In this document: positions 8,765 to 10,269 of the stretch, in pieces | How positions within the stretch are numbered: position 1 is the first letter of the stretch | How the letters are laid out: every line of letters starts with the position of its first letter | NCBI GenBank assembly: GCA_018695135.1 | Contig: JABHOV010000069.1 | Location: forward strand, 1-34,120 | Direction of reading: 5' to 3' | From: Candidatus Melainabacteria bacterium | GTDB taxonomy: Bacteria; Cyanobacteriota; Vampirovibrionia; LMEP-6097 | DNA length: 34,120 bases | Position numbers and translations under genes: made by a program | Notes under the pieces: generated by a model | What the model saw: only the letters and a program-made list of their open reading frames with translations | The model's database searches: none | Told to the model about the DNA's origin: nothing

Positions 8765-8807
8765 TTATGGACACGCTAGAAAACTTCGTTGTTTAGCGTG
8801 TCCATAA
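8765..8807. repeat. 43-nt near-perfect hairpin
   Basis: TTATGGACACGCTA / TAGCGTGTCCATAA 14-bp perfect arms, extendable to ~20 pairs with a 3-nt TTC loop. Confidence 0.85.
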
Positions 8808-8934: not shown

Positions 8935-8956
8935 TAGGGTCGTATCCTGCCATCTG
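8935..8956 (+). repeat. Left copy of 22-bp inverted repeat flanking the Y1 transposase gene
   Basis: TAGGGTCGTATCCTGCCATCTG; exact reverse complement at 10110..10131. Confidence 0.9.
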
Positions 8957-9172
8957 CCTTAATCGTGTAATACACAGCTTCGTAATTTCACAATGCTAAA
9001 ATCTGCTCTAGTTTAAAGGAGAAGATTTATGGCAAGAGATTTATCTATCGAATTTCCAAATGCTTTCTATCACGCATTTTCAAGAGGTATTAATCGACAA
9101 CAACTTTTTTATGACAATGAAGATCATTGGATTTTTTTGAATCAATGCAGAAAAGCAGTCCAGAAATATAAC

Positions 9173-9330
9173 GTTTTGCCTTAATTTCCGCTTACTCGGG
9201 AGCAAGCTCACCGAGTTTTATCCGCGGAAATTATTGTTTCCTTCGAAAACAAACGGCAAAACCTTGATCGTCATTCCGTTCTATCCTCCGAGAGCAAGCT
9301 CTCGAGTTTTCACTACATTCGGAATAAAAT
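9173..9330. mobile_element. ~155-bp insertion carrying two REP-like hairpins inside the transposase gene
   Basis: GTTTTGCC/GGCAAAAC; TAATTTCCGC/GCGGAAATTA with inner ACTCGG-GAGCAAGCTC-A-CCGAGT; then ATTCCG...CGGAAT with inner CGAGAGC-AA-GCTCTCG. Boundaries approximate. Confidence 0.7.
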
Positions 9331-10109
9331 CAGAATTTTTGCTTTTTGTTTAATGAGCAATCACTACCATCTCTATCTTTGTACTCCCCAAGCCAATATT
9401 GCCAAGGTGATGAAGTTCATCAATCAGTCTTATGCGATTTATTTTTTGGCTAAATATCCAGAGAAGGACGGACATGTATTCAAAGGTAGATACAAAAAGA
9501 AAATTGTACAAACGGACAAGTATTCTAAAACACTAATCAACTACATTCACAACAATCCAGTTGTAGCGAATTTGAGCACAAACCTAGCTGCTTATCCCTG
9601 GTCAAGCTACTCTTCTTTCATTAACCCTAGAGAGCGTTACGACTTTATTGACTACTCCTGGGTTCTGGATCAATTCGGGCAACCTGATAAACAGATCAAG
9701 AGATTCAAGGAATTTCATCAAGAGAATTCAGACTCTGACTGGTGCCCCAGACAAGAAGCTAAGGCGCAAATATTTTTAGCTGATGACTCATTCATTAAAT
9801 CTATTTGTGATCAATATTTAGACTTTGACAAACTGGAAGGTAAACCCATCAATGGCTTGAGTGAGCTCAAAGCAATATACAATCGCGCCAATATAATAGA
9901 AGTCATTAACTCACTAGACTTTAAGGCGGATACCAATGCAAAAATCACAGCTTATTTATTAAGGGAGTACACTGACATTACGATTAAAGGAATTGGCGAA
10001 CTCCTCAATAAGTCCGACAATGCAGTCTGGAAGATACTACAGCGCTTTCGTAACTTGATCAAGAATGACCAAGAACTAGAACTCGAAATACGTAAATTGG
10101 TTGAAATGT

Positions 10110-10131
10110 CAGATGGCAGGATACGACCCTA
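10110..10131 (-). repeat. Right copy of 22-bp inverted repeat (overlaps the transposase 3' end)
   Basis: CAGATGGCAGGATACGACCCTA; encodes the terminal SDGRIRP* of the transposase. Confidence 0.9.
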
Positions 10132-10269
10132 AGGCGCTACTGCAAAAATAAATTTGGTTCATAGTGTCCGAAGTTTACTTTGTAAATATTCAGGGAAGAT
10201 CAAAGCCTAGATCTTTGGTAACGCAACTGAGTCCCCGTAATGAGCAACGCAGCTATTGGGCGTCATGGA

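Follow-up and report, generated by a model that had tools for sequence, protein, structure and literature searches.

A transposase-less hairpin element, probably of IS200/IS605 type, interrupts a RAYT-like gene in a Candidatus Melainabacteria genome

We analysed a window of 34,120 nucleotides (the whole stretch under study, contig JABHOV010000069.1 of the Candidatus Melainabacteria assembly GCA_018695135.1), and found at 9029-10132 a Y1/HUH RAYT-like transposase gene that is split just upstream of its HYH motif by a 156-bp insert. The N-terminal frame starts at 9029, runs through ...RKAVQKYN-VLP and meets a TAA at 9182-9184. The C-terminal frame (...KIRIFAFCLMSNHYHLYL) continues in the same frame to the stop at 10130-10132. 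A previous sequence-only reading had described this split, and both the shared frame of the two halves and all of the hairpin arms that it named were confirmed. The parts of the gene and the repeats around it are listed here.

8935-8956, + strand: left terminal inverted repeat of the RAYT unit (TAGGGTCGTATCCTGCCATCTG), the cognate repeat; forms a perfect 22-nt inverted repeat with 10110-10131 and is dispersed as inverted pairs
9029-9171, + strand: N-terminal part of the RAYT/TIRYT; 60-79% identity with the N-termini of the homologues L021, L022 and L074; the frame continues to the insert TAA at 9182-9184
9324-10132, + strand: C-terminal part of the RAYT/TIRYT with the Y1_Tnp domain (PF01797, E 1.8e-6); first ATG at 9353
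10110-10131, - strand: right terminal inverted repeat of the RAYT unit; overlaps the final codons of the RAYT gene and its stop

We take the HYH motif to lie at 9362-9370 and the candidate catalytic tyrosine to be encoded at 9542-9544. Upstream of the RAYT unit, at 8765-8807, there is a separate 20-nt inverted repeat (90%, TTATGGACACGCT...AGCGTGTCCATAA).

The closest intact relatives of the split gene are L022 in the same genome and L074 in a congener, with 79% identity over the N-terminal piece and 68-69% over the C-terminal part. Compared with the paralogues L021 and L022, the split gene contains exactly 156 bp (52 codons) of surplus DNA. The insert was absent from 12/12 RAYT homologues compared, including L021, L022 and L074, and the possibility that it is ancestral coding sequence, which the earlier reading had named as a result that would overturn it, was rejected on this ground. 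That reading had also called for an uninterrupted paralogue, which L022 provides, and had proposed that removal of about 155 bp would restore the gene; the restoration holds, with the size corrected to 156 bp. The insertion target lies in codons KY(K/N)I, and the reconstructed empty site, AAATATAAAATCAGA, reads K-Y-K-I-R-I-F where the paralogue has K-Y-G-I-R-I-Y. Exact removal of the insert yields an open RAYT frame of 315 codons. The split RAYT is presumably inactive unless the element leaves again, because the stop codon closes the N-terminal frame and no start precedes ATG 9353, from which translation would leave out the N-terminal part of the fold. The PF01797 match can be extended into the insert, but this improves only modestly on the C-terminal part by itself; we treated the extension as a chance alignment.

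The insert can equally be written as 9172-9327 with an identical empty site, because ATAA is common to both ends. Its features are as follows.

9168-9323, - strand (bottom strand read as the putative active strand): inserted element of 156 bp, defined by paralogue alignment, copies, covariance model and guide rule
9168-9171, - strand: matching TTAT at the other element end, the putative right cleavage site, from copy comparison and the guide test
9173-9262, no strand assigned: three-way junction with outer stem 9173-9180/9255-9262 and stem 9182-9191/9224-9233, from covariation
9195-9215 and 9234-9252, no strand assigned: hairpins inside the three-way junction, from covariation
9195-9215, no strand assigned: first conserved hairpin, CTCGG-GAGC-AA-GCTC-A-CCGAG, from sequence and consensus fold
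9216-9219, - strand: putative guide tetranucleotide AAAA, immediately 5' of the first hairpin, from the guide test
9286-9306, no strand assigned: second conserved hairpin, CTC-c-GAGAGC-AA-GCTCTC-GAG, oriented as the first, from sequence and consensus fold
9307-9310, - strand: putative guide tetranucleotide AAAA, immediately 5' of the second hairpin, from the guide test
9324-9327, - strand: target and putative left cleavage site TTAT (host), kept beside the element; constant in nearly all f1/f6 copies listed and present in empty sites

The stem at 9182-9191/9224-9233 has the arms TAATTTCCGC/GCGGAAATTA, and the arms ATTCCG/CGGAAT are also present. The outer stem, GTTTTGCC/GGCAAAAC at 9173-9180/9255-9262, had been overlooked. 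GAGCAAGCTC occurs at 9200 and again at 9292 as a direct repeat with 92-nt spacing, and its strand is unchanged across all copies. The stretch forms a far better fold than shuffled versions of it (z -5.1, 0/200), and it brings the in-frame TAA at 9182-9184 ahead of the HYH motif.

The hairpin pair recurs in the genome, a check that the earlier reading had called for. A 176-bp query gave 17 matches at E<0.01 in the own genome (G000; 2.05 Mb, 124 contigs), 8 of them long, at unrelated sites. Glutamate synthase comparison shows the host to be gammaproteobacterium-like, with no named organism close to it. The insert is a mobile element, present in this genome as about 17 full or partial copies. Two congeners have further ones, with about 20 matches in G001 and about 9 in G002, the latter about 72% identical to the window copy and near-identical among themselves. 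Near-identical copies in G041 and G002 suggest, from their sequence similarity, recent activity. Full copies span 151-161 bp, and because of this variation the length of 52 codons is not special. The copies listed begin with (T/A)ATAA and finish with ATAAA. In single-hairpin copies, which are about 70 bp long, the left portion of the first hairpin is fused with the right portion of the second; these copies look like core deletions between the two hairpins. One copy, L266 (G018:C23:8250-8465), has its first hairpin module duplicated in tandem.

For two of the copies, C91 and C120, the surrounding DNA is another repeat, whose empty copies read straight through the site. All 14 empty matches in three genomes have AATAAA at the site (AATAAA/CTTCG) and none has AATAAC, with one of the 14 altered just before AATAAA. 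Insertion is seamless at ATAA, which then stands on both sides, because the empty host-repeat copies all keep AATAAA; a boundary model in which the target had a variable C/A was rejected for the same reason. There is no terminal inverted repeat or duplication beyond the common ATAA core, and the host base ahead of ATAA differs among near-identical copies. Orthologous empty sites in congeners were mostly unusable, the intergenic DNA being too diverged. A dispersed repeat of about 140 bp with inverted ends AGAACCTGTCTTGAAAG was also seen (L007, L002; G002 copies L182-L206), and two insert-family copies lie inside such repeats at the same AATAAA.

The fold is conserved. The consensus over 15 copies has 42 pairs with 97% of cells paired, and 76 cells are changed on both sides versus 0-9 when the partners are slid. 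A covariance model built from these copies found full-length copies in G004, of the same family, and in G041, of another family. A second covariance model, searched over 382 genomes of the class, located the element in 12 genomes of Gammaproteobacteria belonging to families f1 and f6, and the remainder gave no match at E<=0.001. Among 24 diverse copies, compensatory changes occur in 34/42 pairs (213 cells versus 17-47 with partners slid), although the alignment was fitted to the covariance model, which favours covariation but not by as much as seen. The element was absent from the phage, plasmid and viral-contig libraries searched. It appears to be a new, previously uncatalogued family present in at least two bacterial families. 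A resemblance to integron attC sites (AAC/GTT) was dropped, since type B copies read AAAG.

IS608 recognises its cleavage site through a guide tetranucleotide that lies 5' of the hairpin, with the pairs GL AAAG/CL TTAC and GR GAAT/CR TCAA and the contacts A16:T-3 and A17:T-4 (PMC5934647). As we read these two guide/site pairs, position -1 is paired by the fourth base of the guide, and the third base has no canonical partner. On the bottom strand, TTAT stands at both ends in the f1 and f6 copies listed, with the G004 copies reading AATG rather than ATAA at one end. From a TTAT site, the predicted guide under the IS608 code is therefore AANA. The bottom-strand tetranucleotide 5' of the hairpin foot was AANA (AAAA, AATA, AACA) in 47/48 cases against a baseline of 3.4% elsewhere in the elements, a test that was post hoc as to strand and made on related copies, so that 47/48 does not amount to 48 independent trials. 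The sole varying position is the third, the one without a canonical pair on our reading of the IS608 code. An A-T pair beneath some hairpins makes the exact hairpin foot arguable. Reading the top strand as active, which was considered first, failed the guide prediction (ATNT in just 5/48). The AATG copies in G004 (L215, L221, L226, L231) keep the same fold, with the change on the left and the guide still AATA.

The two hairpins face the same way, and their flanking motifs match each other within nearly every copy. The + strand of the element lies on the C-rich strand in 46/67 copies (p=0.003), as judged by the GC skew of +-10 kb, a crude proxy for replication direction with many weak windows. 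The bottom strand accordingly lies on the G-rich strand, as expected if it were the lagging-strand template. Under the top-strand reading the orientation had first been predicted the opposite way and the guide test came after, so the two results are not independent predictions. The anatomy is that of the IS200/IS605 type, the single-strand ("peel and paste") transposons: same-strand subterminal hairpins, no terminal inverted repeats, no target duplication, a fixed short target at one end with a matching end sequence (G004 differing at one end), and a guide tetranucleotide 5' of each hairpin that fits the cleavage site. The terminal inverted repeats and target duplication of a classical MITE are absent.

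The interrupted gene carries repeats of its own. We found a Y1_Tnp domain with the HUH motif, as in a REPtron (PF01797 in the C-terminal part; homologues L021, L022 and L074), and the flanking GGGTCGTATCCTGCCATCTG inverted repeats do not have the GT(A/G)G head and GC-rich palindrome architecture of REPs. Instead, the RAYT-like gene lies between terminal inverted repeats unrelated to GTAG REPs that are themselves dispersed, which is the TIRYT/TIRtron arrangement. Allowing <=3 mismatches, the 22-nt terminal repeat gave 17 matches, mostly inverted pairs 71-120 bp apart. Pairs of this spacing with the form GGGTCGTATCCTGACAT(C/T)(T/G)G make up a TIR-dimer family in G000 (C27, C119, C121, C16; L056-L063), and a palindromic copy of the terminal repeat in G001 (L191) lies near where G000 has an insert-family copy (C123). 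Published TIRYTs/TIRtrons share the gene between inverted repeats, the 3' repeat overlapping the gene, and the dispersal of the repeats as dimers (PMC3733652). Against that background the gene here is an ordinary member, and the unusual feature is its interruption; it is a TIRYT broken by an unrelated element. The other RAYTs examined in the own genome, and most in G001 and G002, each have their own, differing flanking repeats (L021, L022, L024, L025 and L026 in the own genome; L077-L080 in G001/G002). Across these genomes this applies to nearly every RAYT, with the 3' copy in most cases located at the stop codon or overlapping it.

We consider it likely that the insert is a PATE-like, non-autonomous, transposase-less element of the IS200/IS605 type that has no special relation to the RAYT/TIRYT gene in which it sits; its landing there is best read as chance. 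A Y1 HUH transposase supplied in trans would bind the two subterminal hairpins, which face the same way, on the bottom strand while it is single-stranded, probably as the lagging-strand template. The AANA 5' of each hairpin would pair with the TTAT cleavage site at each end, and the single strand may then leave as a circle and reinsert on the 3' side of a different TTAT, neither duplicating nor losing target sequence. In this gene, the element's TAA (9182-9184) would stop RAYT translation ahead of the HYH motif. The PATEs of Haloquadratum walsbyi (palindrome-associated transposable elements, PMC3119063) are likewise transposase-free, with IS605-type subterminal palindromes and a short targeting sequence; they also show core deletions between the two palindromes and are often nested in other mobile elements, IS605-type transposons included. 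In contrast, the element here has bacterial hosts, one end formed by a conserved three-way junction, a fold conserved across two families, and no related full-length IS605 element found. With IS608/ISDra2 (IS200/IS605 family, PMC5934647) it shares subterminal hairpins, a guide tetranucleotide on their 5' side that would pair with the cleavage site (AANA with TTAT here, AAAG with TTAC in IS608), insertion on the 3' side of the target and perhaps the lagging-strand orientation, but it has no tnpA or tnpB, is only 156 bp long, and has identical guides and targets at both ends. None of the Y1_Tnp genes or loci examined in the draft genomes G000, G001, G002, G004 and G041 is flanked by insert-type ends. 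An autonomous relative with tnpA, which a non-autonomous element does not itself need but which should occur somewhere, was not found among them, and this speaks against the PATE-like reading. In G041, one Y1_Tnp gene of another type (L246, G041:C3:134063-134414) is apparently broken by stops or a frameshift.

A possible, though rather unlikely, alternative is that a resident TIRYT/RAYT enzyme of relaxed specificity moves the element in trans, the element not being its cognate repeat. The anatomy of the element calls for a Y1-type enzyme, and TIRYTs/RAYTs are the only Y1 enzymes found in the own genome. However, no RAYT has flanking repeats that match the element ends, and among the genomes examined no RAYT types are common to the f1 and f6 hosts.

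The very strong covariation of the three-way junction could also be the mark of a conserved structured RNA, a gene or regulator dispersed in cassette form, whose fold is selected at the RNA level. We regard this as very unlikely. There is no sign of selection on the + strand RNA alone, because G.T and A.C cells occur in similar numbers (43 versus 50). Rfam 15 gave no match to the insert at the settings used, the insert lies within a transposase gene, and its ends follow the DNA guide/target logic of the PATE-like reading.

The sequence-only reading had taken the insert for a BIME-like pair and suggested that the gene may be an enzyme inactivated by its own substrate; the insert would then be a REP pair (BIME/REPIN) on which the broken RAYT itself acts. 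A hairpin pair does lie within a RAYT-like gene, and the element is mobile and repeated. REP/BIME/REPIN sequences, too, are short repeats that form hairpins; Y1 enzymes are believed to move them, and some lie within genes (PMC2817692, PMC3116915, PMC3733652). REP dimers, however, are mostly inverted and GTAG- or CGTC-tagged, whereas the element is direct and AANA-tagged, with fixed ends and target. Beside its hairpins we found AAAA/AATA on the bottom strand and CTTA, CTAT and similar tetranucleotides on the top strand, and neither GTAG nor any other REP head. The repeat that belongs to the RAYT is a different one, the 22-bp inverted repeat at 8935-8956/10110-10131, dispersed in inverted pairs, and insert-type ends flank no Y1 transposase locus examined in the five genomes. 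The element flourishes in G041 as well, where the Y1 genes belong to a different type. We therefore hold the own-substrate explanation to be highly improbable; the earlier observation was confirmed and its interpretation partly supported. Rickettsia palindromic elements, as cited in PMC3733652, are likewise palindromic and inside genes, but by that account they stay in frame and are translated, whereas the insert here carries a stop codon. An assembly artefact, in which a repeat joined two unrelated contigs of this metagenome-assembled draft (124 contigs, many repeats), has a negligible likelihood, since one RAYT supplies both flanks, its halves share a frame, and they meet at the exact residue expected from paralogues.

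More speculatively, the element might be the founder of a class of single-strand elements, structured, transposase-less and widespread, which by borrowing Y1 enzymes have lasted across bacterial families, and at the same time a reversible off-switch in the RAYT for a rival mobile system, the latter idea arising because excision is exact. We consider this combined proposal unlikely.

The element adds to mobile DNA an uncatalogued family of small elements whose anatomy reproduces the IS608 guide/target code, and the family offers a natural set of variants with which to test the base-pairing recognition of DNA by Y1 transposases. RAYTs with individual flanking repeats form a second natural series, of enzyme/repeat pairs. 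The locus itself represents a case of one hairpin-based parasite breaking the transposase of another.
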